This document shows, in pieces, positions 3,608 to 23,804 of a stretch of DNA of 64,000 bases. The first letter of the stretch is position 1. Each line of letters begins with the position of its first letter. The notes beneath the pieces were generated by a model. That model saw only the letters and a program-made list of their open reading frames with translations. It was not told where the DNA came from and ran no database searches. The stretch lies in contig NZ_FXTD01000011.1 in assembly GCF_900182635.1 (NCBI RefSeq), positions 1-64,000 on the forward strand. Direction: 5' to 3'. A program made the translations under genes and the position numbers. Origin of the DNA: Halorubrum cibi. GTDB lineage: Archaea > Halobacteriota > Halobacteria > Halobacteriales > Haloferacaceae.

Positions 3608-4927
3608 CTACCAGGTCAACCCCTCGTAGGTGATCCCCTCGCGCCGCTCGATTATCCGCCGGCCGTCGACGACCACGGACTCGGCCATCGCGTCGAACTC
3701 CTCGTCCAGCGCCGCGAACTCGTCCCAGTCGGTCGCGACGACCGCGCCCGACGCGCCCGCGAGCGCGTCCGCGGCCGAGTCCGCGTACTCGATCTCGGTC
3801 TCGGAGAACACCTCGCGCATGGTTTCCGTCGCGACGGGGTCGTAGCCGACGACCGCGGCTCCCCGCTCCAACAATCCCTCGATCAGGGGGATCGCCCGGG
3901 AGTTGCGCACGTCGTCCGTGCCGGGCTTGAACGCCAGCCCGAGGACGGCCACGCGCTCGCCCGCGACGTCGACGTGCTCGTCGAGCAGCGCGAGCAGGCG
4001 CTCGGGCTGCCGGTCGTTCACCTCGACAGTCGCCTCCAGGAGGGGCGGCTCGTAGCCGACCTCTCTCGCAGAACTAATTAGTGCGTCGACGTCTTTGGGA
4101 AAACACGATCCTCCCCAGCCGACCCCCGACCGCAGGAACCGCTCGCCGATCCGGTCGTCGAGTCCGACCGCCTCCATCACCTCGTAGGCGTCGAGCCCGA
4201 ACTCCTTGCTGACGTTCCCGAGGTCGTTGGCGAGCGAGATCTTCGTCGCGAGGAAGGCGTTGTTGGCGTACTTGATCAACATGGCCGTCTCCGGGTCCGT
4301 CCGGACGACGGGGCTGTCGGTCGACTCGATCAGCGGCGCGTACAGCTCCTCCAACGTCGCGAGCGCCGACGCCGATTCCGTCCCGAAGACGATCTTGTCA
4401 GGGTTCCGGAAGTCCGAAACGGCGGTCCCCTCACGGAGGAACTCCGGGTTCGTCGCGAGCTCCACGTCGCCCGCGAGCGCACCGGCGTCGGCGTCACCCC
4501 GGTCCAACCCGGTCGCGAGAGCCTCCCGAACCCGACCGAGACCCGGCGGCGTGATCGTCGACTTCACGACGACGAGGTGTTCGCGGTCGCCGTCGAGTCC
4601 GGAGAGCGCCTCGCCGACCATCTCCGCCGCCGCCGACAGCGGTCCGAGGTCAATGCTCCCGTCGGACCGCGAGGGAGTGCCGATCGCCAGGAAGGTGAGG
4701 TCCGCGTCCGCGAGGTCGGCGTAGGAGGTCGTCGCCCGCAGTCGGGTGCCGACGTGCTCTGCGAGCAGGTCGTCGAGGCCGGGCTCGTGAAGCGGTGCGC
4801 GCCCCTCGTTGATCGTCTCGACGACGGACTCGTCGATGTCGATGGCCGTGACTTCGTGGCCCATCTCCGCCAGACACGCGGCGAGCGTCGTACCGACGTA
4901 GCCGCTGCCGACGACGTTGACGTTCAT
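3608..4927 (-). CDS. aglM: UDP-glucose 6-dehydrogenase
   Basis: Oxidises UDP-glucose to UDP-glucuronate with two NAD+, giving the hexuronic acids of haloarchaeal N-glycans. The 439-residue protein begins [20 protein letters not shown] (Rossmann GxGxxG); the catalytic cysteine is in [14 protein letters not shown] at about residue 275, and the C-terminal UDP-binding domain has [15 protein letters not shown]. An in-frame start 18 codons upstream exists, but 4927 places methionine directly before the Rossmann strand and about 25-30 bases after a TATA-like GGTTTTTGTCC. Divergent from aglF with about 160 bases between, as expected for a shared UDP-sugar pathway. Function known from Haloferax volcanii AglM. 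Confidence 0.92.
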
Positions 4928-5087
4928 GGACGAGACGACGGGGAGCGAGGACAAAAACCGCGGGGTCGCGGTTCGAGCCATCGAGTCGGTACACGGTCAC
5001 CACACTCGCGTCGAGTCGTCCGCACGAGTGGAAATCGACCCCCCGAAGACCGAATCCTTATACGCCTATGACAGAAATCACCGTCCA
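4928..5087. promoter_or_regulatory. divergent aglM / aglF promoter region
   Basis: For aglF the plus strand has AATCCTTATACGC (about 5053-5065), a TATA-like element roughly 25-30 bases before the start codon at 5088, implying a leaderless transcript. For aglM the minus strand has GGTTTTTGTCC at about 4950-4960. No clear operator repeat was seen between them. Confidence 0.6.
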
Positions 5088-9583: not shown

Positions 9584-9615
9584 CGCTAAACCGCCGCCTC
9601 CGAGGATCCGTTCAC

Positions 9616-10548
9616 ATGAACGACAAGCGCGTCCTCGTCACGGGGGGTGCGGGCTTCATCGGCTCGAACCTCGCGAACCGCCTCGCCGCGGACAACGACG
9701 TGGTCGCCGTCGACGACACCTACCTCGGCACGCCCGAAAACCTCGACGAAGCGGTGAAATTCGTCGAGGCTTCGGTCCTCGAGGACGACTACCCCGCCGA
9801 CGTCGACGTCGTCTTCCACCTCGCCGCGCTCTCCTCGCGAAACATGCACGAGGAGGACCCCCAGCGCGGCTGCCGCGTCAACGTCGAGGGCTTCGTCAAC
9901 ACGGTCGAGCGCGCCCGAAAGCAAGGCTGTGAGACCGTCGTCTACGCTTCCACCTCCTCCATCTACGGCAGCCGCACCGACCCCTCGCCCGTCGACATGG
10001 ACGTCGAAGCCCACACCGCCTACGAAGCCTCCAAGCTCGCCCGCGAGCGCTACGCCGAGTACTACGCCAACCACCACGACATGAACGTGGCCGGCCTCCG
10101 CTTCTTCTCGGTCTACCAGGGCTTCGGTGGCAACGAGGAACACAAAGGCGAGTACGCCAACACGGTCGCGCAGTTCGCCGACGCCATCGCCGCAGGCGAG
10201 GCCCCCGAACTCTTCGGCGACGGCACCCAGACGCGCGACTTCACTCACGTCGAGGACGTCGCTCGCGCCTGCGAGCTCGCCGCCGACCACGAACTGACGG
10301 GCGTCTACAACGTCGGCACCCAGGAGGCCTACTCCTTCAACGAGATGGTCGAACTCATCAACGACGCGCTCGGCACCGACATTGATCCGGAGTACATCGA
10401 GTGCCCCTTCGACGGCTACGTCCACGACACCATGGCCGACTACTCCGCCTTCCACGACGCCACCGGCTGGGAACCTCAGATCAGCTTCGAGGAGGGCGTC
10501 GAACGCGTCTGTCGACCCTACCTCGAGGACGCGACGGAGACGGCGTGA
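9616..10548 (+). CDS. NAD-dependent sugar epimerase/dehydratase (UDP-glucose 4-epimerase-like)
   Basis: 310 residues of the extended SDR family; likely interconverts or dehydrates a nucleotide sugar for surface glycans. VLVTGGAGFIGSNLANRLA is the NAD-binding GxxGxxG, YASTSSIYGS holds the catalytic serine strand, and YEASK is the catalytic YxxxK. GDGTQTRDFTHVEDVARA and GVYNVGTQEAYSF are standard substrate-side motifs. The start at 9616 follows a GCTAAACC element by about 30 bases. It is the intact parent, or a sister, of the truncated copy at 1213-1803. Haloarchaeal relatives occur in agl glycosylation clusters. Exact sugar unknown. Confidence 0.88.
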   Translation: MNDKRVLVTGGAGFIGSNLANRLAADNDVVAVDDTYLGTPENLDEAVKFVEASVLEDDYPADVDVVFHLAALSSRNMHEEDPQRGCRVNVEGFVNTVERARKQGCETVVYASTSSIYGSRTDPSPVDMDVEAHTAYEASKLARERYAEYYANHHDMNVAGLRFFSVYQGFGGNEEHKGEYANTVAQFADAIAAGEAPELFGDGTQTRDFTHVEDVARACELAADHELTGVYNVGTQEAYSFNEMVELINDALGTDIDPEYIECPFDGYVHDTMADYSAFHDATGWEPQISFEEGVERVCRPYLEDATETA

Positions 10549-10584: not shown

Positions 10585-11016
10585 TCAGCTGAACGGGTTG
10601 TCGGCGGTCTCCAACCTGCTGATGGCGTCGATGGTGTCGAAGTCATCATCGAACGAGTACAGATACTCGATGTTCTCTCGCTCCATGTAGGCGACGACGG
10701 TCGCGTCTCCGAACGCGAGTCCCTCGTAGGTTTCGAAGAGTTCCACCGCGCGATGAAAGTCCTTCTGAGCGGAGTGGATCAGTTCGAAGCCCGCCGAATC
10801 GGAGAGCCGATCACGGAGATCGACCGCGATGTCGTGCCGCCGTCGCTCGTGGATCCAGTTTAGAGACTCCAACAGCACGTAGTTCGTGACGCGGGCCGTG
10901 GGAAGGTCACCCCGATCGATCGCGTGAACGATGGCTGCTGCCTGGTCGTGACGGCTACCAGAGCTCGTATCCTTGTAGTCGATGAGGACGTTCGAATCGA
11001 CGACTGCGACCGCCAT
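10585..11016 (-). CDS. vapC: VapC-type PIN-domain toxin
   Basis: A 143-residue PIN-domain ribonuclease. AVVDSNVLIDYKD gives the first acidic residue, TNYVLLESLNWI the second, and FGDATVVAYMERENIEYLYSFDDDFD the C-terminal acidic cluster, so the metal site appears complete. VapC toxins cleave tRNA or rRNA and are held by a cognate antitoxin. Its start codon directly abuts the stop of the AbrB-type antitoxin gene upstream (TGAATG), a translationally coupled pair. Confidence 0.85.
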   Translation of the reverse strand: MAVAVVDSNVLIDYKDTSSGSRHDQAAAIVHAIDRGDLPTARVTNYVLLESLNWIHERRRHDIAVDLRDRLSDSAGFELIHSAQKDFHRAVELFETYEGLAFGDATVVAYMERENIEYLYSFDDDFDTIDAISRLETADNPFS

Positions 11017-11289
11017 TCAGGCGTTCTCCGTGAACGCGGGGTCGTCTTCGTGTCCGGCGAGGTCGTGTGTTTCGACGCCGTCACCGCCCATCGGAGCCTG
11101 GAGGTCGTCGTCTTCGAACGCCCCGTAGCGCTGTCGGACGACCTCGACAGCGAGATCCCCGCCCTCGGTGACGTTCCAGCGGAGCTTGTCGCCGGGCTCG
11201 ATATCGAGCCGGCGTCGGAGTGCCGCCGGGATCGTGACCATGCCACGGTCACTGACCGTGGTCTCTTCGGGGAAATCTTCGGCTGCCAT
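11017..11289 (-). CDS. AbrB/SpoVT-type antitoxin
   Basis: 90 residues. The swapped-hairpin AbrB domain is at the N-terminus: TTVSDRGMVTIPAALRRRLDI then EPGDKLRWNVTEGGDLAVEV. The C-terminal 40 residues are acidic and probably wrap the PIN toxin. It is the first gene of the pair with the PIN toxin and likely self-represses with it. A longer open frame reaches 11457, but the AbrB domain begins just after MAAEDFPEE, so 11289 is chosen. Confidence 0.83.
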   Translation of the reverse strand: MAAEDFPEETTVSDRGMVTIPAALRRRLDIEPGDKLRWNVTEGGDLAVEVVRQRYGAFEDDDLQAPMGGDGVETHDLAGHEDDPAFTENA

Positions 11290-11515
11290 ACGCACCGGTA
11301 CACGCTTTGTCACATTACATGTTACGCTACATGTTCTTCGCGAGAGAGGACGCCGGGACCGACCCGGACCGCTCTCGTGACACCAGCGGGCCGGGGTCCG
11401 CAGCGAAGTCGGATCGGGCGAACAGGGTATACTCAATGGATCAGGTCGAGATCTCACAGGAGATCTGACGACACCCGGTCCGAAGAAGGAACGGTCAGTC
11501 CACCCGCCCTGACGA

Positions 11516-13147
11516 TCACCCCTCCTCGACCTTCCCGTCGCGCCGGTCGCGCTCCCGCGCCTCCGGGTCGCGCTCGTCGGGGTCGCCGTGACCGCCGCCG
11601 CCGGGCGTCAGGATCGAGACGGTCGAACCGGCCGCGACGTCGAGGGAGGTCTTCGCCGGAACGGGCTCGCCGTCGACGAGGTTCTCGCCGGTCGCGCCGT
11701 CGTCGCCGCCGTCGAGCCCCGCGGGGGCCGTCTGCCGGCGTTCGGTCAGTAGCGAGACGGTGGCGTCGGTCTCGACGGTGACGGTCCGTTCCAGTCCCAG
11801 TCCGCCGCGGTATCGACCGTCGCCGCCGCTTCCGGGACGCAACGCGTAGCGCTCGACGCGGAGCGGGTACTCCGCCTCCATCGCCTCTGCGGGCGTGTTG
11901 AGCGTGTTCGTCATCCCGACCTGGACGCCGTCCATGCCGTCCTTTCCGGGGCGGGCGCCGAACCCGCCGCCGATCGTCTCGTAGTAGGTGAACTCGCCCG
12001 ACCGGTCGCCGATGATCAGGTTGTTCATCGTCCCCTGCCCGCCCGCGGGGATCGCGTCCGGGACGGCCGGGGCGAGCGCCGCGAGCGTGACGTCGGTGAC
12101 GCGCTGGCTCGTCTCGACGTTGCCGCCGACGACCGCGGCCGGTGGCCGCGGGTCGAGAAGCGATCCCTCGGGTGCCGACACCGACACCGGCTCGTAACAG
12201 CCGTGGTTCGGCGGGATCTCCGGGTCCGTGATCGCGCGGACGACGAAGTAGACCGCGCTCTTCGCGACCGACAGCGGCGCGTTCAGGTTGCCCGCGACCT
12301 GATCCGCGGTCCCGGCGAAATCGACGTCGAGCGACGCGCCGTCGATCGTGATGGCCGCCTCGATCGGCACGTCGTCGTCGGTCACGCCGTCGCCCTCGAG
12401 TGCGTCCCGCGCTCGGTAGGTGCCGTCCGGGAGCGCGTCGACCTCGGCCTCGACGCGCTCGCGCGAGTAGTCGATGACGGCGTCGAAGGCGTCGACGAGC
12501 GTCGCGCCGTGTTCCTCGAGCAGCTCGCCGACCCGCTCCTCCGCGCGCGCGTTCGCGGCGCGCTGCGCGCGGAGGTCGGCCTCGCGCTCGTCCGGAGTCC
12601 GGACGTTCGCGCGGATCAGTTCGTGGACCGCCTCGTTCGGCTCGCCGCCGTCGACGAGCCGGACCGCGGGCAGCCGCAGCCCCTCCTCGAAGATCTCGCG
12701 GGCACCGGCGGGCATGCTCCCCGGCGCGCTCCCGCCCACGTCGGCGTGGTGTGCGCGCGACACCGCGAAGCCGAGCACCTCTCCTTTCGGGGCGATCGTC
12801 GACACCAGCGTGACGTCCGGCAGGTGGGTCCCGCCCGCAAAGGGGTCGTTGACGACGAACACGTCGCCCGGCCTCGGGTCCTTCTCGAGGACCGTCTCCA
12901 CCGCGTCCGGCATCGCGCCGAGGTGGACCGGGATGTGTTCGGCCTGCGCGACCATCCGCCCCGACGCGTCGAAGAGCGCCGTCGAGCAGTCCTGCCGCTC
13001 CTTGATGTTCGGCGAGTACGCTCCGCGGATGAGCACGTGGCCCATCTCCGTCGCGACGCTCTCGAGTTGGTTCCGGAGGATCTCCAGGGTAACCGGGTCG
13101 AGCACGTCGTCGCCGCCGTGGCTCTCGCGTCTCACGTCGTCGCTCAC
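11516..13147 (-). CDS. hyuB: hydantoinase B / 5-oxoprolinase subunit B
   Basis: 543 residues of the HyuB family, which with HyuA forms an ATP-dependent hydantoinase, 5-oxoprolinase or related carboxylase. Recognised from LDPVTLEILRNQLESVATEM near the start, IKERQDCSTALFD, VVNDPFAGGTHLPDV, SRAHHADVGG and the glycine-rich end LTPGGGGHGDP. The start is GTG at 13147, overlapping the hyuA stop in a GTGA tetranucleotide, so the two are translated as a coupled pair. The reading frame continues far upstream inside hyuA, but that part is a shadow. The substrate cannot be told. Confidence 0.9.
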   Translation of the reverse strand: MSDDVRRESHGGDDVLDPVTLEILRNQLESVATEMGHVLIRGAYSPNIKERQDCSTALFDASGRMVAQAEHIPVHLGAMPDAVETVLEKDPRPGDVFVVNDPFAGGTHLPDVTLVSTIAPKGEVLGFAVSRAHHADVGGSAPGSMPAGAREIFEEGLRLPAVRLVDGGEPNEAVHELIRANVRTPDEREADLRAQRAANARAEERVGELLEEHGATLVDAFDAVIDYSRERVEAEVDALPDGTYRARDALEGDGVTDDDVPIEAAITIDGASLDVDFAGTADQVAGNLNAPLSVAKSAVYFVVRAITDPEIPPNHGCYEPVSVSAPEGSLLDPRPPAAVVGGNVETSQRVTDVTLAALAPAVPDAIPAGGQGTMNNLIIGDRSGEFTYYETIGGGFGARPGKDGMDGVQVGMTNTLNTPAEAMEAEYPLRVERYALRPGSGGDGRYRGGLGLERTVTVETDATVSLLTERRQTAPAGLDGGDDGATGENLVDGEPVPAKTSLDVAAGSTVSILTPGGGGHGDPDERDPEARERDRRDGKVEEG

Positions 13148-15204
13148 GACTCGGTCACCTCCGCCACCAGCGCGCCGTCTCCGCGGACCCGCACATCCCA
13201 GCCCGGCGGAACCACGGCCGTACTCTCGTCGCCCTCGACGACGGCCGGCCCCGCGAGCGTCTCGCCCGGCGGCAGTCGACCGCGGTCGTAGACCGCCGTG
13301 TCGCGGACGCCGTCGTCGGCCGTCCCGCCGTCGTCGTTGGCGGCCGTCTCGCCGACCTCGCCGAAGACCGCCTCGCGGGTTCCCTTCCGCGCGTCGCCGG
13401 CGGCGTCGTACCCGATCGACGGCGCGCTCCGGGGAACGGTTGCCGTCGCCCGACAGTTCACGAGTTCGACCGGCTCGTCCACCCGGTAGCCGTAGGCGGC
13501 GTCGTGGGCCGCCGCGAACGCCTCGCCGGCCGCCTCGGGGTCGAAGGGACGCTCCACGTCGACGGTGAGTTCGAAGCTCTGTCCGGCGTATCTGAGGTCC
13601 GCGGCGTGGCGCACGCTCGCCGCGTCGCGGTCGCTCACCTGGGCCAGAAGCTCCTCGGAGAGCTCCGCGTACACCGCATCGATCGCGTCGGGGTCGACCG
13701 CCGAGAGGGGGCGCTGGCGGGTTCGGACGGCGTCGCGCTTCTCGTCGGCCGCGAGCAGCCCGTACGCCGAGAGGACGCCGGAGGCCCGCGGGATCACCAC
13801 GCGATCGATGTCGAGGCCCTCGGCGATCGCGATCGCGTGCATCGGCCCCGCGCCGCCGAAGGCGACGAGCCCGAATCGCCGCGGGTCGTAGCCGCGCTCG
13901 ACGGTCACCGACCGGATCGCGCGGCTCATGTTCGCGTTCGCGACGCGGTGGACGCCGCGGGCGGCGGCGAGCGGCCCCTCGAGGCCCGCCTCCGCGGCCA
14001 GATCGGCGAGGGCGTCGCGGGCGGCGTCCGCATCGAGTGACAGTTCGCCGCCGAGACTGGTGCTCGCGCCGACGTACCCCAACACGAGATTCGCGTCCGT
14101 CACGGTCGGCTCCGTGCCTCCCTTCCCGTAGCAGGCCGGGCCGGGGTCGGCCCCCGCGGAGCGCGGCCCGATTCGGAGCGCGCCGCCCGCGTCCACCCAG
14201 GCGATCGACCCGCCGCCCGCGCCGACGGTCTCGACGTCGACCATCGGCGTCCGGATCGGCCGGTCGGCGATGACGCCCTCGGTGGTCCGTTCGGCCGCGC
14301 CGTCGCGGACGAGGCTCACGTCGCTCGAGGTCCCGCCCATGTCGAAGGTGACGAGGCCGGCTTCGTCGAGTTCGTTCGTTCCACTGCCCCCGCCCGCCAT
14401 CGCGCTCGCGCCCACGACGCCCGCGGCCGGTCCCGAGAGGACGGTCGTCACGGCGTTTTCCCTGACGGTGTCGGCGTCGGTTATCCCCCCGTTCGCCTGC
14501 ATGATCCGCGGCTGCGGGACGCCGCGGTCCCGCGCGCGCGCCGAGAGCCCCCCCACGTAGCGGTCGATCGCCGGGCGCACGTAGGCGTCGACGGCCGTCG
14601 TCGACGTCCGCTCGTACTCGCGGAACTCGGCGAGCACCTCGTGGGAGGCGGACACCGGCGCGTCGAGCTCCTCGCGGAGGACCGCCGCGACGCGCTCCTC
14701 GTTCTCGGGATGTGCGTAGGCGTGAAGCAGGGAGACGGCAACCGATTCGGCGTCGGACTCGCGGATCTCCGCGGCGAGCGCGCGCACCTCGTCGGCGTCG
14801 ACGGGGCATTCGATCCCGTCGACGGTCGCCCGCTCGTCCACCTCGAACCGGCGGCGTCCCGGAACGAGCGGCTCGGGCTTCTCGGCGTCGAGGTCATAGA
14901 GCGACGGGCGGTCCTGCCGGCCGATCTCCAGAACGTCTCGGAACCCCTCGGTCGTGACGAGTGCGGTCCGCGCGCCGTCGTCCTCGAGCAGCGCGTTGAC
15001 GGAGACGGTCATCGCGTGAGAGAACTCCGAGACGCTCTCGGGGTCGATCCCGGCCGCCGCACAGGCCTTCTCGATCCCGGCCATCACGCCCTCGCTCTGG
15101 TCGTCGGTGCTCGGGACCTTCGCGGTCACGAGCTCGCCGTCGAGTGCCAGAACCACGTCGGTGAACGTGCCGCCGACGTCGACGCCGATCCGCCGTGCTC
15201 CCAT
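13144..15204 (-). CDS. hyuA: hydantoinase A / 5-oxoprolinase subunit A
   Basis: 686 residues with the actin/hexokinase-like ATPase fold of HyuA: RIGVDVGGTFTDVVLALDG is the phosphate-1 motif, VTFDMGGTSSDVSLV the phosphate-2 motif, and LVAFGGAGPMHAIAIAE the C-terminal adenosine-side motif. It hydrolyses ATP to open a cyclic amide (hydantoin, N-methylhydantoin, 5-oxoproline) together with HyuB, whose gene overlaps its stop by 4 bases. No transporter or amidohydrolase neighbour is present to indicate the substrate. Confidence 0.92.
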   Translation of the reverse strand: MGARRIGVDVGGTFTDVVLALDGELVTAKVPSTDDQSEGVMAGIEKACAAAGIDPESVSEFSHAMTVSVNALLEDDGARTALVTTEGFRDVLEIGRQDRPSLYDLDAEKPEPLVPGRRRFEVDERATVDGIECPVDADEVRALAAEIRESDAESVAVSLLHAYAHPENEERVAAVLREELDAPVSASHEVLAEFREYERTSTTAVDAYVRPAIDRYVGGLSARARDRGVPQPRIMQANGGITDADTVRENAVTTVLSGPAAGVVGASAMAGGGSGTNELDEAGLVTFDMGGTSSDVSLVRDGAAERTTEGVIADRPIRTPMVDVETVGAGGGSIAWVDAGGALRIGPRSAGADPGPACYGKGGTEPTVTDANLVLGYVGASTSLGGELSLDADAARDALADLAAEAGLEGPLAAARGVHRVANANMSRAIRSVTVERGYDPRRFGLVAFGGAGPMHAIAIAEGLDIDRVVIPRASGVLSAYGLLAADEKRDAVRTRQRPLSAVDPDAIDAVYAELSEELLAQVSDRDAASVRHAADLRYAGQSFELTVDVERPFDPEAAGEAFAAAHDAAYGYRVDEPVELVNCRATATVPRSAPSIGYDAAGDARKGTREAVFGEVGETAANDDGGTADDGVRDTAVYDRGRLPPGETLAGPAVVEGDESTAVVPPGWDVRVRGDGALVAEVTES

Positions 15205-15382: not shown

Positions 15383-16798
15383 TCACTTCCAGACCGTCTC
15401 GACCACGTCCGCGCCAACCTTCCAGATCTGTCGCGTGACGAGTTTCATGTCATAAGAGAACGATTGTCGTTTCACGTACTGGAGGTCGTATCGTAGCTTC
15501 TCCTCGGGGTCGGTACTTTTCGCGTCGTTGACCTGTGCCAGCCCGGTCAATCCGGGCTTGACGAACCACCGCTTACGCCAGGACTGCTCTTGTGCCTCCA
15601 GAAGCGACTCCTCGTCGGTCCACACCGCCCGCGGTCCGACCACGCTCATGTCGCCGACGAGGATCGACCACAACTGGGGAATCTCGTCGAGATGCGTCTG
15701 TCGAAGGACTTTCCCCACACGCGTGATCCGGTCGTTCGCCTCATCGTCGACCGGTTCGACCGACTCGCCTTCCGGAACCATCGACCGGAACTTGTACACG
15801 TCGAACGTCTCGCCGAACACCGCCGTCCGCTCCTGACTGTAGAGGATCGATCCACCGTCGTCCAGCTTGATCGCGGCGGTGATCGCGGCGATGACCGGAC
15901 TCAACGCGAGCAACCCGAAAAGCGAGAACGCCACGTCGAACCCCCGTTTCAGGACGTGGTCCTGGACGTCCCACGGCTCGACGTCGACGTCGACGAGCGT
16001 CCCCACGTCGTCGTCGTCGGTCAATACCCGGTCGGCGTGTTCGCGGTGGACCTTCGCCGCGACCCCGTGTTCGTAACACGCGTCGAGCGCGCCGAAGAAC
16101 TCCGCGCGGTCGGTGTGTTCGAAGGCGAGTACCGCCGTGTCCACGTCGTACTCGACGAGCACGTCCTCGATCCGCGAGAGCCCCCCGAGCCGGTCCAGTC
16201 CCCGGATCCGATCCCCGCCGTCGGCGACCGCCGTCGCGACCGCCGATGACTCCCCCGATCCCGTGGCGGGGTCGAGCGAACTCGTCGGACAGAGGTAGCC
16301 GAGCAGGGGAACGTCCACGTCGGCGGCGAGCCGCTCGATCTCCGCGGGATCGTCGCCGACGACGATCACCCGATCCGCCTCGGCGGTCGGCCGTCGGCGG
16401 ATCCACACGAACCACGCCGGGAGGACGACGAGCAACACCGGCGTGACCGCGATGAGCGTCGTCCGAGGCAGGCGGTAGGTGTAATCGAAGTAGCCCACGG
16501 CCGCGAGCGCGAACATCGCGACCATGACTCGCTTCTGGGCGAGCGCGATCGTATCGAGGATGCGGCGCGGCCGCGGCTTGTACAGCGGAACGAAGGCGGC
16601 GGTGACGACGACGACCGTCGTGGCGATCTCGAAGACGAGCTCCGCACCCATCGGCGCGTCCGCCGCCAACCGACCGACCAACGGGAGCCGACCCAATATC
16701 GCGTGCGTGACGGCGCTGTTCGCGACGGCGACGGCGACCGCCGTCAACGCCGCGACGCCCGCGACGCTTTCGAGCCGATACCGCCATCCGGAGAGCAT
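15383..16798 (-). CDS. polyprenyl-phosphate sugar-1-phosphate transferase (WbaP/PssY-type)
   Basis: 471 residues. The N-terminal third has about four membrane helices (roughly 10-30, 50-70, 90-105, 115-135), then a Rossmann-like cytoplasmic domain (DRVIVVGDDPAEIERL) and, from about residue 280, a bacterial sugar transferase domain: KRGFDVAFSLFGLL, KFRSM, THLDEIPQLWSILVGDMSVV, GPR and KPGLTGLAQVN. The family moves a sugar phosphate from a UDP-sugar to a lipid phosphate, the first step of glycan or exopolysaccharide assembly. It sits next to the STT3-like gene on the same strand (108 bases apart). Confidence 0.9.
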   Translation of the reverse strand: MLSGWRYRLESVAGVAALTAVAVAVANSAVTHAILGRLPLVGRLAADAPMGAELVFEIATTVVVVTAAFVPLYKPRPRRILDTIALAQKRVMVAMFALAAVGYFDYTYRLPRTTLIAVTPVLLVVLPAWFVWIRRRPTAEADRVIVVGDDPAEIERLAADVDVPLLGYLCPTSSLDPATGSGESSAVATAVADGGDRIRGLDRLGGLSRIEDVLVEYDVDTAVLAFEHTDRAEFFGALDACYEHGVAAKVHREHADRVLTDDDDVGTLVDVDVEPWDVQDHVLKRGFDVAFSLFGLLALSPVIAAITAAIKLDDGGSILYSQERTAVFGETFDVYKFRSMVPEGESVEPVDDEANDRITRVGKVLRQTHLDEIPQLWSILVGDMSVVGPRAVWTDEESLLEAQEQSWRKRWFVKPGLTGLAQVNDAKSTDPEEKLRYDLQYVKRQSFSYDMKLVTRQIWKVGADVVETVWK

Positions 16799-16906: not shown

Positions 16907-19372
16907 TCAGCCGCCCGCTGCGACGCGCTCGCCGCCGGAGATCGCGGAGCCGGGGACGGTCACCGTCCGGTTCCCGACCGCGGATCCGGCGGCGGTTTCC
17001 TCGGGTCCTCCCTCGACGTCCACCGCGTACTCGCCGGGGTGAGCGACGACGACGGCGTAGCTCCCCTTCGCATCCGTCGTCGTCCGACGCTCGTAGGCGA
17101 ACGACGCCCCGGGGACCGTGACGTTCGTCTCGACCGTCACGGTCGCGTTCGGCGCGGCCTGCCCGGCGACCGTCGCGCCGCCCACGGGACGGAACACCGC
17201 GATCGCGTCCTCCTCGGTGACGTACGCCAGCCGGAACCGACCGGAGCCGTTCGCCGCCGGGGTGGCGCTACCCCACGCCTCGTACAGCTGGGCGTACCCG
17301 GAGTCGGGGGGCGGGTCGGCCGCCTCGATCTCGTGTATCGCCACGTACCCCGCCCGCCCTTGGAACCGGTCCGCGTGTGTATCGGGGTTCGGATCGCGGA
17401 TGAGCGGCTCGTAGTTGCGCTGGGCGTAGCCGTAGGTGTTCGATTCGCCGTTGACGCCGTAGTTGAACATGCGGCTGCGGCCCCACTCGGTCAGGACGTA
17501 GTCCGGACCCTCGGTCGCGTTCGCGTCGGCGTCGATCCACTCGATCGCCTCGACCTCCGCGTCGGTCGCCGCGACGTTGTCCATCACCGCCGGCACCATG
17601 AACAGGCTCAGGCTCGCGACCAACAGCACGGTCGCCGCGGCGTAGCCGACGTCGCGCCCCGAGACGCCGTCGGGTCGGAGGTCGAGTCGAACTCGATCCG
17701 CGCGATCGCCGAAGGGGGTCGGTCGCTCCGCGAGGTCGATGACCGACAGCAGGTACACGAGACCGACGCCGGAGAGCACCGCGACCACGCCCGTGGCCTC
17801 GCCCGCGAAGCGGATCTGGACGAGCCCGAAGGTGACGAGCGTCGACGCGTAGCCGACGACCACCAGCCACCGGGGCTCGTGATCGCGCACGCAGCGCGCG
17901 CCGACCCACGCGAGGACGGGTAACGCCACGAACAGGAACCAGCCGAAGTGGTCGATCGGTCCGAAGATCACGCCGTAGTCGGCGGCGAAGAGGCTCCGCG
18001 TCTCGGCTATCCCCTCCCGTCCCAGAAGCGATCCGACCGTCCGCTCGGCCAGTCGGTCGGCCACGTCGGGGCGGAACCGGTTCAACCCGAACCAGATCGG
18101 GGGGACGCTCAGCGCCGAGACGACGAGGTGGATCACCGGATGTGCGTCGAGACGGCCGAGCACGGCCGCGGCGACCGCGACCAGCGCCACGCCGACCGCG
18201 ACCAGAAGCGGCGCGTACACCGCGACCGGCTCCTGCCACCCCGCGCTCGTGTGAAGGCGGTGGGCGAGCAGGAAGCCAAGCCCGAGCGCGCTCACGACGG
18301 GCGTGGCGGCAACGAGCGGATTCCACCCGGCGCGCATGTCCGAGGCCGCTCGCAGCGTCGCGTACACGGCGAGTCCGACGAGGAGGATGGGCGATCCGTT
18401 CCAAGAGTGCGCCATCGCGGCGAAGACGACGGCGAGCCCGGCCACCACCAGCCACGTGGCCGGCGACGTGAGGTGACCGAGCCGCGCGTCCGGATCGCGC
18501 GTCTCGTGATCGCGTGCGAGCCAGGTCACGCCGACGATGGAGAGCGTGAGCCAGACGTAGTCGATCGCGTGATGATCGAAGAAGCCGATCCCGGAATAGA
18601 GCGCGTGCCCGGGAAGCAGCGCCAGGACCACGACCGAAGCCACCGCGATACGCTCGTCGTTCGTCGTCCAGACCGCGATCAGGAAGACGCCGAACCCGAC
18701 GACGAGAGCGGCGACGACGGGGATCCAGGCCACGATCGCCGCGGCGTCTTCCACCCCGCCGCCGAGAAGCTCCGTCGTCCACCAACCGAGGGTGTACGCG
18801 AGCGGCTCGCTGTTGACGCGTCCGCCGAGCACGCCGCCGATGGTCTCGAACGCGAACCGGTCGGGGCTCGCCTCGGCCAGCCGCTCGACCCAGTAGAGGT
18901 AGTGGTACGGGTCGTTGCCCGGCAGCACGACGCGACCGTCACGGAACACGCTCCCGATCGTCGCGATCCGGAACGCGAACAGGAAGAGAAACGCCGCGAG
19001 AAGGCCGCCGAGCAGGTCGCGATGGAGCGCCTCCCGCCATCCACGGACCGCTCCGCCGACCCATCCGTCCTCCCCGGCCGCCCCGCCAAACGCGCTCGAG
19101 ATGCCGCCCGATCCGTCCGCGTCTCGACTCGCGTCCGCTGGTTCTCCCTCCAGCGCGGCCCGAACCGCCTCGGGGTCCGCAACCCGGTACTCGTCGCCCT
19201 CGCGCTCGACGATCTCTCGCGAGACCAACTCGCCGAAGGTGCCGGAGTCGATGTCGACGTCGTCGAACTCCCACGGGCCGGAGTCGTCCGCCGCGAGGAC
19301 CGATTCGAGCGCCGACTCGACCGCCGGTCGCTCCTCGAGGAGCTCCCGCGTCGCCGCGTGCGGGTCCGCCAT
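16907..19372 (-). CDS. STT3/AglB-like oligosaccharyltransferase, divergent
   Basis: 821 residues. A soluble winged-helix-like N-terminus (about 1-80: GTFGELVSREIVEREGDEYR) precedes about 12 membrane helices from residue 118. GNDPYHY at 152-158 and FFDHHAID at 264-271 are the metal-binding acidic motifs of STT3 enzymes. The expected WWDYG acceptor motif is absent; at the matching place (about 622-636) it reads TEWGRSRMFNYGVNG. The C-terminus is a small transthyretin/Ig-like domain (TVTVETNVTVPGASFAYERR). Main haloarchaeal AglB proteins are longer. This could be a paralogue with a different acceptor, or a GT-C enzyme of another glycan pathway. Neighbouring sugar transferase supports a glycan role. 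Confidence 0.75.
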   Translation of the reverse strand: MADPHAATRELLEERPAVESALESVLAADDSGPWEFDDVDIDSGTFGELVSREIVEREGDEYRVADPEAVRAALEGEPADASRDADGSGGISSAFGGAAGEDGWVGGAVRGWREALHRDLLGGLLAAFLFLFAFRIATIGSVFRDGRVVLPGNDPYHYLYWVERLAEASPDRFAFETIGGVLGGRVNSEPLAYTLGWWTTELLGGGVEDAAAIVAWIPVVAALVVGFGVFLIAVWTTNDERIAVASVVVLALLPGHALYSGIGFFDHHAIDYVWLTLSIVGVTWLARDHETRDPDARLGHLTSPATWLVVAGLAVVFAAMAHSWNGSPILLVGLAVYATLRAASDMRAGWNPLVAATPVVSALGLGFLLAHRLHTSAGWQEPVAVYAPLLVAVGVALVAVAAAVLGRLDAHPVIHLVVSALSVPPIWFGLNRFRPDVADRLAERTVGSLLGREGIAETRSLFAADYGVIFGPIDHFGWFLFVALPVLAWVGARCVRDHEPRWLVVVGYASTLVTFGLVQIRFAGEATGVVAVLSGVGLVYLLSVIDLAERPTPFGDRADRVRLDLRPDGVSGRDVGYAAATVLLVASLSLFMVPAVMDNVAATDAEVEAIEWIDADANATEGPDYVLTEWGRSRMFNYGVNGESNTYGYAQRNYEPLIRDPNPDTHADRFQGRAGYVAIHEIEAADPPPDSGYAQLYEAWGSATPAANGSGRFRLAYVTEEDAIAVFRPVGGATVAGQAAPNATVTVETNVTVPGASFAYERRTTTDAKGSYAVVVAHPGEYAVDVEGGPEETAAGSAVGNRTVTVPGSAISGGERVAAGG

Positions 19373-20031: not shown

Positions 20032-20301
20032 ATGAGCACGGAAACAGATTCCAACGGCGACATGGTCAAATTGAACGTCAAAGTCCCGAAGCGGCTTTTA
20101 GAGGAGATCGACGAACTGGCCGAGGAACTGGAGTACACCAACCGGTCGGAGTTCGTTCGTGAGGTACTGCGCGACACCACGGAACCGATCCTGACGCCGG
20201 GAGCACGGGAGGGCGTCTCCGAGGGCTACGCGGACGTCGCGGCGGGACGGACGATGTCCACTGACGAGGCCCGGGAACGCCTCGGTATCGACACGAACTG
20301 A
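20032..20301 (+). CDS. ribbon-helix-helix antitoxin
   Basis: 89 residues. The ribbon-helix-helix lies at residues 11-50: VKLNVKVPKRLLEEIDELAE then YTNRSEFVREVLRD. The C-terminal half (GVSEGYADVAAGRTMSTDEAR) is the usual toxin-binding segment of RelB/ParD-like proteins. It is followed after 10 bases by a RelE-type toxin and should repress the pair's promoter. Confidence 0.85.
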   Translation: MSTETDSNGDMVKLNVKVPKRLLEEIDELAEELEYTNRSEFVREVLRDTTEPILTPGAREGVSEGYADVAAGRTMSTDEARERLGIDTN

Positions 20302-20311
20302 GGGCCGAACG

Positions 20312-20611
20312 GTGGCTCACGAGGTCGTCCTGACCGAAACGTTGGTCGAAACGCTGGAGCAGTTCGAAACGAAGGACGCGAAGCGGATCATCAACAAACT
20401 GGAGGACATCGATGAGTTCCCCGATCACTTTCTCGATCGACTCAAGAACCATCCCGGCTACAAGCTTCGAGTCGGAGACTTTCGCGTGCTGATCGACTGG
20501 GACAAAGACGACGAGGTACTCTACGCCATCGACGCCTTCGAGCGAAAAAAGGAGTACCGAGAACTCGGGAAGTTCCGTGAGGTGTGGGGATCGTGGCGTG
20601 ATAACGAGTAG
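20312..20611 (+). CDS. RelE/ParE-superfamily toxin
   Basis: 99 residues, GTG start. AHEVVLTETLVETLEQFETKD, then PGYKLRVGDFRVLIDWDKDDEVLYAIDAFERKKEY, the standard RelE fold with basic strand (LRVGDFRV) and C-terminal RKKEY. Family members cleave mRNA on the ribosome or inhibit gyrase. It is the second gene of an antitoxin-first module. The RKKxY ending favours the RelE (mRNase) side. Confidence 0.83.
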   Translation: MAHEVVLTETLVETLEQFETKDAKRIINKLEDIDEFPDHFLDRLKNHPGYKLRVGDFRVLIDWDKDDEVLYAIDAFERKKEYRELGKFREVWGSWRDNE

Positions 20612-20816: not shown

Positions 20817-23804
20817 TTAGTCGCGACGGCGCGTCGCGAGCAGGGCAGCGGCGATGAGCGCCACGAGGGCGACGAGCGCGCCGAAGCCGGGCGTGCTGTC
20901 GTCCGTGGAGTCATCCGTGGAATCGTCGCTAGACGAGTCATCCGTGGAATCGTCGCTGGACGAGTCATCCGTGGAGTCATCGCTGGACGAGTCATCCGTG
21001 GAATCGTCGCTGGACGAGTCATCCGTGGAGTCATCGCTGGACGAGTCATCCGTGGAGTCGTCCGCACTGCCGTCGTCGGACGGAGCCTCGACGGTCAGCG
21101 TGGCCGTCTGGCTGTCGTCGTTGGTGAAGACACCGTGGTCGTAGTCGCCGGCATCGAGACCGGAGGTGTCGATGTCGGTGAACTCGACCGTGGTGCTCTC
21201 GCCGCCACCGAGCTGGACGTCCTGCTCGGCGACCGCGTTACCGCCGACGCGGAACTCGACCGTCTGCGTGGCCGAGGCCTCGCCGGTGTTCTCGACCATC
21301 GCGGAGACGGAGATGACGTCACCCTGCGTGACGGTCACGTCCTGCGGGTCGAGACCGGAGACCGCGAAGTTCGCGGGCTCCTCGGGCGCTTCGACGACCG
21401 TGCCGTCGACCTCAACGTCGTCGTTGAAGGTGGGCTGCGAGACGGTCAGCGTGTACTCGTCGCCGACGTTCTGCTCGCTGAAGTCGTACGTCGTGGACCA
21501 CGTGCCGTCAGCGGACACGTTGACCTCGTCGTTCGTCTTCACGAACGAGGGCTGCGTACCGGTCTCGGAGCGGGCGCGGACGGTGAACTCCGTACCGGGA
21601 GCCACGTTCGTCGTGCCCGTCACTTCCGCGGACTCGGTCGCGGTGAGGTTGTACGGGTCAGCGTCGAAGGAGGCCTCTGCCTCGTTGATGCTGACTTCCT
21701 GGGACACCGTGTTGTAGTAGTTGTCTTCGAACTCGGTGTTCGTGTCGATGTCATCGCCGGGGTTCAGGAGCCGCTCGTCCTGAACCGTGAACTCGACATC
21801 GTACGTGTAGTCCTCAGTGTCGTCGAGGCTGGCGCCACCGACACCAGCGAGACCGCTCGTGTCAGCGACGACGTAGTACTCGTCGTTCGCCTCGTCGACG
21901 ATGATGTCGTCAACGTTCGAGCCGTTGAGCCGGAACGTATCGCGATCCGCGTTCGGACCCGCGCTGCTGCGAGTCTCATACAGGCGGAACTCGATCGCAT
22001 TGTCGTTGTTGCTGAAGTCGTTGGAGGTGAACTGACCGTTGTTCAGATCCTCGACCAGCTCATTGAGCTGCTGGACCTCCTCGTCGGAGTTAGCGTTGCC
22101 CGACTGACCAGCGTAATCGAACAGACCGCCGAGACCGCTCGCACTGACCTGGATGACGGCCGTGTCACCGTGGGCGATCGTGCTCGTCTGCGTGAGCTCG
22201 TTCGCCTCGACGGCGCTGGTGATCTCGTCGAGTTGCTCGTCGTCGTCAGCACCCGTGATGTCGTCAGCGTTGCTGTCGGATGCCGTCCAGACCTGGACGC
22301 CCTCCGTCGAGCGCTCCTCGATGAAGAGCGTGGCAACGTCGTCGGAGTTGTCGAGCGTGTTGCTCGCGCTACCCGTGCCCGACGAGATGTCGTAGTCGCC
22401 GGTTGCGAGGATCTCGTCGAGATCCTGCGAATTGGGTCCTTCCTCGACCTCGATGTCGTCGTCATCGTCGTCCGTGTCGACGACCTCGACGACGTTGTCC
22501 GCACCGCCGCTGAAGGAGTTGTCCCCAGCGGTGTACGTGTTGAACCGCAGCGTGATCTCGTCGTCATCACCGAAGTCGGTGATGCTGACGTTGGCCTGGT
22601 AGCCGAAGTCGTCCTCGTTACCGATGACGACCGTACCCTCACTCGAAACACCGTCACTGGTCACGGTGAATTCGACGTTGTCACCCTGCTGGGTGGTGAG
22701 GCTGGATTCCTCGATGTTGATTTCGCCGTCACCGGCGTCCTCGACGGTGATCGAGGCGGTGTCCTCGGCCGTCGAGTCAGTCACGTCGAACGTGAACTCG
22801 TACTCGCCGGCGTCAATGTCGGTGAAGTTCGCGTCGATTTCGCCGTCACTGACAGTGCCGAGCGAGATCGTTTCATCGTCTTCATCAACGTTGGTGACGG
22901 TGGTACCAGCGTTGGTGAAGATCTGCTCAAGATCCTCCTCATCCAGACCGTCCGCAGAGACTGTAACCGGGTAGCTGCTACGGAGATCAGACTGGAGATC
23001 GACCGCTGTGGTTGCGTCTTCACCGGTGTCGGAAGCGGTGTCATCGTTCCACTCGGCGGAGATATCTTGGACGGAGAGGACGAATGTGTCACTCGAACTG
23101 CCACCAGAGCTAGGTCCGGCAATATAGTAATCTCCTTCAGAACGGTCCTCAGTACTGAAGAAGATCACGCCATCACTGGTAGACGTGGTTCGAACGCGTG
23201 GGCGCGTGGTTTCATCATCAATCCGCTCATACAGGACGTATTCGGTATCGGCGTCCAGATTACTTACCGCGACCTCTTGACCCTGGAAGACAGATCCAGT
23301 GCCGCCGTGAAGGGCACCGGGTGAGCTACTCGGGTCCGTGAAGACCACGTTGGCCACGCCACCGCTATCGGAATCGAGAGCGGCGCCCTCTACGTCATCT
23401 ACACTGTCACCGTCTTCATAATTGCTGAGTGCGCTGGATTCGCTCTCATTGAACAGATGAGCGGTGTGGACACCGGGGAATCCATCAGTATCATCGACCT
23501 CAATGTCGACCTCACCGGTACTCGCAGTATTAACAGTCGTGGAACCTGCGAGGATAGTGTCGCCACCATCTTCGTAGGTCAGAACGACCGTTACGTTGTA
23601 GGGTGAGGTACCAGCAAGGTTGGTGATATCTGCCGTTACGCTACCATCATCAATCGCTTGGTCATCAAAAGTAATGGTACTGCTGCTATTGGCGTCCGCA
23701 GCGGCAGGTGCCGCAGCGAAGCCGACAGCAACCATGGAGATGACCATGAGGACACTGAAGAAGACCGCGTTGGCCTTCGTGCGTGTGCTATTGTCGTTTG
23801 TCAT
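20817..23804 (-). CDS. S-layer-like cell-surface glycoprotein with PGF-CTERM anchor
   Basis: 995 residues. An export signal at 1-37 (hydrophobic VFFSVLMVISMVAVGFAAAP, then AAADA) is followed by a very acidic beta-rich body with several Ig-like stretches and multiple N-x-S/T sequons, then a Ser/Asp repeat stalk (DDSTDDSSS, nine-residue period, about 908-965). The end TPGFGALVALVALIAAALLATRRRD is a PGF-CTERM signal: PGF motif, membrane helix, basic tail. Archaeosortase A (gene at 38415) should cleave it and couple the protein to lipid. Layout and size match the main haloarchaeal S-layer glycoprotein, but it could be a paralogue. A long leader and remote TATA box support high, regulated expression. 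Confidence 0.85.
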   Translation of the reverse strand: MTNDNSTRTKANAVFFSVLMVISMVAVGFAAAPAAADANSSSTITFDDQAIDDGSVTADITNLAGTSPYNVTVVLTYEDGGDTILAGSTTVNTASTGEVDIEVDDTDGFPGVHTAHLFNESESSALSNYEDGDSVDDVEGAALDSDSGGVANVVFTDPSSSPGALHGGTGSVFQGQEVAVSNLDADTEYVLYERIDDETTRPRVRTTSTSDGVIFFSTEDRSEGDYYIAGPSSGGSSSDTFVLSVQDISAEWNDDTASDTGEDATTAVDLQSDLRSSYPVTVSADGLDEEDLEQIFTNAGTTVTNVDEDDETISLGTVSDGEIDANFTDIDAGEYEFTFDVTDSTAEDTASITVEDAGDGEINIEESSLTTQQGDNVEFTVTSDGVSSEGTVVIGNEDDFGYQANVSITDFGDDDEITLRFNTYTAGDNSFSGGADNVVEVVDTDDDDDDIEVEEGPNSQDLDEILATGDYDISSGTGSASNTLDNSDDVATLFIEERSTEGVQVWTASDSNADDITGADDDEQLDEITSAVEANELTQTSTIAHGDTAVIQVSASGLGGLFDYAGQSGNANSDEEVQQLNELVEDLNNGQFTSNDFSNNDNAIEFRLYETRSSAGPNADRDTFRLNGSNVDDIIVDEANDEYYVVADTSGLAGVGGASLDDTEDYTYDVEFTVQDERLLNPGDDIDTNTEFEDNYYNTVSQEVSINEAEASFDADPYNLTATESAEVTGTTNVAPGTEFTVRARSETGTQPSFVKTNDEVNVSADGTWSTTYDFSEQNVGDEYTLTVSQPTFNDDVEVDGTVVEAPEEPANFAVSGLDPQDVTVTQGDVISVSAMVENTGEASATQTVEFRVGGNAVAEQDVQLGGGESTTVEFTDIDTSGLDAGDYDHGVFTNDDSQTATLTVEAPSDDGSADDSTDDSSSDDSTDDSSSDDSTDDSSSDDSTDDSSSDDSTDDSSSDDSTDDSTDDSTPGFGALVALVALIAAALLATRRRD
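20908..21062. repeat. 27-bp tandem repeat encoding the Ser/Asp stalk
   Basis: About five copies of a 27-base unit (GACGAGTCATCCGTGGARTC and seven more bases) differing by single bases, each encoding DDSTDDSSS on the minus strand, plus a shorter run. In-frame units allow stalk length change without loss of frame. Confidence 0.85.

Follow-up and report, generated by a model that had tools for sequence, protein, structure and literature searches.

The window, by which we mean the whole 64,000-nucleotide stretch of DNA analysed here, encodes a paralogue of the archaeal oligosaccharyltransferase (OST) AglB/STT3 whose catalytic motifs are intact and which has no WWD. The gene represents a conserved haloarchaeal subfamily that has lost this motif while keeping its catalytic residues, coexists with canonical AglB, co-occurs with a glycosyl-1-phosphate transferase, and correlates in its presence with a sequon-free asparagine at the N-terminus of S-layer glycoproteins. 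We infer that it probably encodes a second, specialized OST of relaxed sequon requirement, acting on the N-terminal asparagine with a dolichol-pyrophosphate-linked glycan; in the absence of biochemical or genetic data, its activity, donor and acceptor are all inferred. With slightly less assurance, we lean toward the broader reading that the subfamily is a widespread second class of OST that N-glycosylates by N-terminal position instead of by sequon, is dedicated to an S-layer glycan carried on dolichol pyrophosphate, and would be the enzyme that has been missing since the 1998 mutagenesis of Ser-4 in Halobacterium.

An AglB paralogue without WWDYG

The open reading frame singled out by an earlier sequence-only reading is present as it described, with GNDPYHY at residues 152-158 and FFDHH at residues 264-268 (Table 1), and its assignment to the OSTs agrees with both family profiles and structural matches. 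The TIGR04154 (archaeo_STT3) match of 158.6 bits lies far under the curated cut-off of 450, the AglB_L1 domain is recognized at the C-terminus, and PF02516 gives a weak match only. A single-sequence phmmer search of the PDB with this protein returned no match; a search with the subfamily profile recovered Archaeoglobus fulgidus AglB and aligned the motifs with GGNDPWYY, NDHH, IAEV and NRFAYY of that protein. The AlphaFold2 model (built on 17 relatives, pLDDT 83) has the GT-C fold of the OST superfamily, with a multi-span membrane half and a C-terminal globular domain. Its best four PDB matches are all A. fulgidus AglB (7e9s/3waj). Ranking next are eukaryotic STT3 and bacterial PglB, with which the model shares the GT-C fold and catalytic layout but not the WWD, at only 11-14% identity in the structural matches.

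Table 1. Positions of the features discussed, numbered from the first nucleotide of the window
Feature	Position	Strand	Support
WWD-less AglB/STT3 paralogue, 821 aa	16907..19372	-	ORF; TIGR04154 E=2e-46; AlphaFold2 model resembles A. fulgidus AglB, TM 0.64
N-terminal ~75-aa cytoplasmic domain, winged-helix-like in model	19148..19372	-	subfamily-conserved, not in canonical AglB
First DXD-type motif, residues 153-156 NDPY, metal Asp154	18905..18916	-	N153, D154, Y156 105/105; aligns with GGNDPWYY of A. fulgidus AglB
Second DXD-type motif, residues 266-268 DHH	18569..18577	-	D266 = D (82) or E (23); H267 105/105; aligns with NDHH of A. fulgidus AglB
TIXE-motif Glu457, sequence GIAE	18002..18004	-	E 105/105; aligns with IAEV of A. 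fulgidus AglB
Invariant Arg521-Phe522 (QxRF, membrane-proximal)	17807..17812	-	R and F 105/105, shared with canonical AglB
Signature in place of WWDYG, residues 626-649 VLTEWGRSRMFNYGVNGESNTYGY	17426..17497	-	W630 102/105, R634 104/105, N637 105/105, G642 99/105, Y647 103/105; WWD 0/105
C-terminal AglB_L1 peripheral domain (PF18079)	16922..17179	-	E=1.5e-8
Polyprenyl-phosphate glycosyl-1-phosphate transferase (Bac_transf, TIGR03025 family)	15383..16798	-	PF02397 E=7e-56; TIGR03025 E=9e-77
S-layer glycoprotein (halo signal peptide TIGR04207, PGF-CTERM), likely acceptor	20817..23804	-	TIGR04207 at 23694-23777; PF18204, PF25162
Candidate acceptor Asn39 of S-layer precursor (...APAAA / DANSSST)	23688..23690	-	signal end by AxA rule; group statistics
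NAD-dependent sugar epimerase/dehydratase, possible glycan supplier (role inferred)	9586..10545	+	PF01370 E=3e-48
UDP-glucose/GDP-mannose dehydrogenase family, possible glycan supplier (role inferred)	3608..4981	-	PF03721 E=9e-48

Motif conservation was counted over 105 distinct subfamily members. The two DXD-type motifs, the TIXE glutamate, and the Arg-Phe pair are shared with AglB, although the third ligand of the second DXD-type motif (position 268) varied among the members viewed, and the Thr-Ile part of the TIXE motif is relaxed, so that only the glutamate is strict; this still qualifies as a TIXE/SVSE motif. Arg521 stands at what we take to be the position of the donor-phosphate arginine in PglB. 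Since the metal site, the TIXE glutamate and this donor-side arginine are kept, the chemistry of amide glycosylation would be kept with them. The roles of the metal-site and TIXE residues have been described in AglB, where the TIXE glutamate forms part of the peptide-binding frame (PMC8342417).

The absence of WWD, which the sequence-only reading had claimed for the window protein, extends to every one of the 105 distinct relatives. The site instead reads TEWGRSRMFNYGVNG (residues 628-642) and conforms to a signature of the subfamily's own, W-[GSP]-x-[NS]-R-[ML]-[YF]-N-[YH]-x-V-x-G-E. Because all of these relatives lack WWD and have this signature in common, the loss is, judged from the sequences, neither chance nor a local mutation. 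A profile-profile alignment with ten canonical AglBs contained no WWDYG equivalent and set YVLTEWGRS opposite GVQSWWDYG. In an alternative register 40 of the 105 members have WGD and 23 have WGR, the second tryptophan being glycine and the aspartate position being about as often arginine, glutamine, lysine or glutamate; a partial remnant of WWD may thus survive in some members. The subfamily also differs from canonical AglB in its C-terminal soluble region, which is less than half as long (median 207 versus 484 aa), and in its extra N-terminal domain. In the model this domain has the order H-H-H-E-E-H with a pLDDT of about 85-92, and in the subfamily alignment (A1) W34, F36, D42, S43, G44, F46 and G47 are invariant. 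The winged-helix-like stretch, fused N-terminally across the whole subfamily, also has matches elsewhere in Halobacterium genomes, at G156:C1:214233-214493 (in a 183-aa frame) and G209:C1:2255716-2255958 (in a 322-aa frame).

The sequence-only reading had left unsettled whether a standard AglB is encoded elsewhere in the genome. One is, at G000:C7, with 1040 aa and the motif SWWDYGHWI (SWWDYGHWITTRAERIPNANPFQQ), beside what appear by eye to be a family-2 glycosyltransferase and a UDP-sugar dehydrogenase; the window protein is accordingly not the sole AglB of its genome. Its closest named relatives, at 84-86% identity, are from Halorubrum rubrum and H. halodurans. Of the 394 genomes sampled from the order, 213 matched the profile built from alignment A1 at E<=1e-20, and, with four weak matches (~1e-21 to 1e-24) counted as canonical AglB, 209 genomes remain as carriers. 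Named members come from Halorubrum, Natrinema, Natrialba, Haloarcula, Halorussus, Halovenus, Halobaculum and others. In a tree the 105 members form one clade apart from canonical AglB (support 0.97), with the reservation that the canonical set did not give a clean root and that no non-haloarchaeal sequences were included. The same profile found no member in any of 15 Haloferax species, recognized by a 92% match to the dihydrofolate reductase of Haloferax volcanii; an empty search proves little by itself, although this query did match the 213 genomes given above. A literature search found no paper describing a WWD-less subfamily, though most subscription journals lay outside it, and as far as we could find the branch was previously undescribed.

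Some genomes hold two full-length subfamily members, namely G203 (G203:C1:2937891-2940275), G243, G358 and G375, the second copy in G203 carrying three in-frame stops. Moreover, residues 1-40 of the OST recur at 98% identity at G014:C10:50338-50457, as a partial N-terminal copy some 2.5 kb away from the complete gene, which suggests local duplication or recombination.

The donor side and its genomic setting

The glycosyl-1-phosphate transferase gene lies 108 bp downstream of the OST gene on the same strand and is the only PF02397 gene in the genome. The pairing noted from the sequence alone is more than a matter of adjacency. Across the 394 genomes a transferase is present in 198 of 209 carriers and in 51 of 185 non-carriers (OR 47, p=9e-48), where the p-value is indicative only, genomes having been taken as independent. 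The coupling is not absolute, as the 51 non-carriers with a transferase and the 11 carriers without a detectable one make plain. In a locus survey comprising 80 loci and the window (81), the transferase falls within 5 kb of the OST gene in 41, and a BacA/UppP-type pyrophosphatase (PF02673) does so in 10, six of these within 500 bp. The product of glycosyl-1-phosphate transferases is a sugar linked to polyprenyl pyrophosphate, which is itself recycled by BacA. From this established enzymology, together with the co-occurrence and the nearby BacA, we infer that the donor of the subfamily is a dolichol-pyrophosphate-linked glycan, without biochemistry to confirm it; PglB and STT3 likewise use a pyrophosphate-linked donor.

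Several further genes share the neighbourhood. Between the OST and S-layer genes lie a ribbon-helix-helix protein (20032-20301) and then a small unmatched ORF (20312-20611), in a toxin-antitoxin-like arrangement, and proteins that by sight are PIN-domain VapC-like (10585-11016) and AbrB/VapB-like (11017-11457) are encoded farther off. Downstream of the transferase, overlapping ORFs at 11516-15204 resemble hydantoinase A/B-type (oxoprolinase) subunits and are apparently unrelated.

The proposed acceptor and the competing readings

An S-layer gene is located 1.4 kb upstream of the OST gene on the same strand, and in 10 of the 81 loci such a gene lies within 5 kb. Asn39 of its precursor is residue 3 of the mature protein as predicted and also falls within an ordinary sequon, NSS, a point against the sequon-free reading. 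For a comparison between genomes, S-layer-type proteins were gathered with the TIGR04207 signal peptide model, keeping the best-scoring ones. Of 70 carrier proteins, 43 had asparagine among mature positions 1-3, against 7 of the 53 non-carrier proteins (p=4e-8); seven windows farther along the mature protein showed no difference. Within Halorubrum alone, where a slightly different cleavage rule accommodated longer alanine runs, the counts were 16/27 and 3/26 (p=4e-4); pooled, they come to 59/97 against 10/79, with a genus-stratified OR of 13 (p=1.2e-5). The residue at +2 of this asparagine is serine or threonine in only 13 of the 59 carrier proteins, equal to the 21% background, as opposed to 7 of 10 in non-carriers. 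Among Halorubrum carriers, for instance, the N-termini ANAGD, NSHAD and VNADD place this asparagine outside any sequon.

These figures depend in part on where the signal is cut. The main rule (the first [AV]xA ending at residue 26-33) was set after the sequences had been viewed, an earlier one (the first AxA after residue 20) having cut within the signal and shown the association less strongly (24/69 versus 5/51, p=0.002). Because the rule was altered with the data in sight, we added a test that uses none, counting asparagine at residues 29-32 from the start of the signal model, and its result agrees (49/70 in carriers, 12/53 in non-carriers, p=2e-7), the maximum falling at residue 30, which is mature position 2. 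The p-values are again indicative, proteins being treated as independent within a genus and chosen by their best-scoring signal peptides. Roughly 40% of the sampled S-layer-like proteins in carriers have no N-terminal asparagine, among them some paralogues that are not the main S-layer protein. We infer from this correlation, and without glycopeptide data, that the acceptor is an asparagine at the mature N-terminus of the S-layer protein that needs no serine or threonine at +2. The comparative evidence thereby supports the suggestion in the sequence-only reading that loss of WWDYG meant another acceptor; of the three kinds it offered, a different peptide pattern is favoured, and lipid and polysaccharide are disfavoured.

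In the mechanism that we propose, the glycosyl-1-phosphate transferase, often encoded next door, would load the first sugar-1-phosphate onto dolichol phosphate, and the glycan would be assembled on dolichol pyrophosphate before being flipped to the outer face. The OST that lacks WWD would then transfer it to the S-layer glycoprotein, onto an asparagine that is N-terminal or adjacent to the N-terminus. With the WWDYG pocket that reads the +2 serine or threonine gone, the site would be chosen by N-terminal position and not by an Asn-x-Ser/Thr sequon, while canonical AglB of the same cell would presumably serve ordinary sequons.

The same loss of the sequon pocket could mean that protein is not the acceptor at all, and that the enzyme is a ligase passing a dolichol-pyrophosphate-linked polymer to lipid or extracellular polysaccharide. 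Its neighbours are of a kind found with exopolysaccharides (the TIGR03025 transferase, epimerases, a UDP-glucose dehydrogenase and a Wzx-like flippase), and in many Haloarculaceae and Natrialbaceae the OST gene sits amid numerous polysaccharide genes, which would fit such a role too. A ligase nevertheless leaves unexplained why S-layer proteins in carriers gain asparagine precisely within mature positions 1-3, and why S-layer genes lie close to the OST gene at the loci noted above, and the glutamate that in AglB frames the bound peptide is invariant; we regard this reading as improbable, although it cannot be disregarded. An enzyme that had lost its N-sequon pocket might instead be an O-oligosaccharyltransferase for serine or threonine of S-layer proteins, for example in the Thr-rich C-terminal stalk. 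Haloarchaeal S-layer O-glycans are known, and the transferase that makes them is, to our knowledge, unknown. It is asparagine and not serine or threonine, however, that tracks the subfamily, and the Haloferax S-layer glycoprotein is reported to be O-glycosylated as well (PMC2952790), in a genus where the subfamily was not found in 15 species, so that we consider O-glycosylation very unlikely.

The partial W-x-D pattern raises a further possibility, that of an ordinary sequon-dependent N-OST with a rebuilt pocket, WGD in some members, serving a second glycan. In its favour, 40 of 105 members keep W-x-D in one register, W630 is nearly invariant, and the window's own N-terminal asparagine is a sequon. 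The aspartate position is nonetheless arginine, glutamine, lysine or glutamate about as often, the second tryptophan has become glycine, the C-terminal soluble region is much shortened, and the residue at +2 of the N-terminal asparagine stays at background; we think it unlikely that a sequon is still read. Least credible of all, in our view, is an inactive pseudo-OST that aids or regulates canonical AglB through its winged-helix-like domain. The extra cytoplasmic domain would suit such a part, but the tested catalytic positions are all invariant (D266 as D or E) in 105 divergent members, and the strong co-occurrence with a donor-making transferase would be hard to account for. Should the preferred reading, a sequon-relaxed OST for the N-terminal asparagine, be confirmed, the chemistry of amide glycosylation would be separable from sequon recognition, sequon-based prediction of N-glycosites would be missing a class of archaeal sites, and the enzyme would aid glycan engineering at free N-termini.

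The Asn-2 glycan of Halobacterium salinarum

We know of no second oligosaccharyltransferase in H. salinarum. Its S-layer glycoprotein carries on Asn-2 a repeating-unit glycan whose transferase is unidentified (PMC2952790). This glycan is assembled on dolichol pyrophosphate and blocked by bacitracin, whereas the other S-layer sites receive an oligosaccharide made on dolichol phosphate, and its linking sugar is GalNAc (PMC8674786). Replacement of Ser-4 of the Asn-2 sequon by valine, leucine or asparagine leaves glycosylation on (Zeitler 1998; PMC2952790), and as of 2019 the handling of this glycan by AglB was “still not clear” (PMC6591318). The reviewed position has been that every oligosaccharyltransferase carries WWDYG and that Halobacterium has one only (PMC2952790); the former statement is contradicted by a conserved WWDYG-less subfamily found in roughly half of haloarchaeal genomes.

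One sampled genome (G128), inferred to be H. salinarum from a bacteriorhodopsin 100% identical over residues 3-262, encodes one subfamily member alongside canonical AglB, which is also found in the Halobacterium genomes G156 and G209. The member clusters with csg, a glmS-like gene, two nucleotidyltransferases and a glycosyl-1-phosphate transferase, and G209 has the same gene order from the subfamily member to the transferase. In G128 a MacB/LolD-type transporter gene stands between csg and the member, with glmS, the nucleotidyltransferases and the transferase following in that order. The presence of amino-sugar genes next to the transferase fits a glycan linked through HexNAc. The Asn-2 transferase has never been identified experimentally; its expected properties (a dolichol-pyrophosphate donor, an N-terminal asparagine and no need of serine or threonine at +2) are those predicted here, and by extension we infer that the subfamily supplies the missing enzyme. 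A concrete gene is thus offered for a puzzle open since 1998, that of a different, pyrophosphate-carried glycan on Asn-2 for which Ser-4 is dispensable.

Two other haloarchaeal systems bear comparison. The AglB-independent low-salt N-glycosylation of Haloferax volcanii (Agl5-Agl15) is likewise without a known OST, and we rejected the subfamily as a candidate for it; with no member found in 15 species of that genus, it is probably not that enzyme, weak as an empty search is alone. For Haloarcula hispanica, from a genus that has the subfamily, an S-layer N-trisaccharide and O-disaccharide have been published and no N-terminal repeating-unit glycan has been reported, which counts against the proposed role. 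As for the S-layer protein of G128 itself (csg-like, L145:2947-5487), it reads ANADQ after the signal, as against the ANAS reported for the studied strain, so that Asn-2 is kept and Ser-4 is not.
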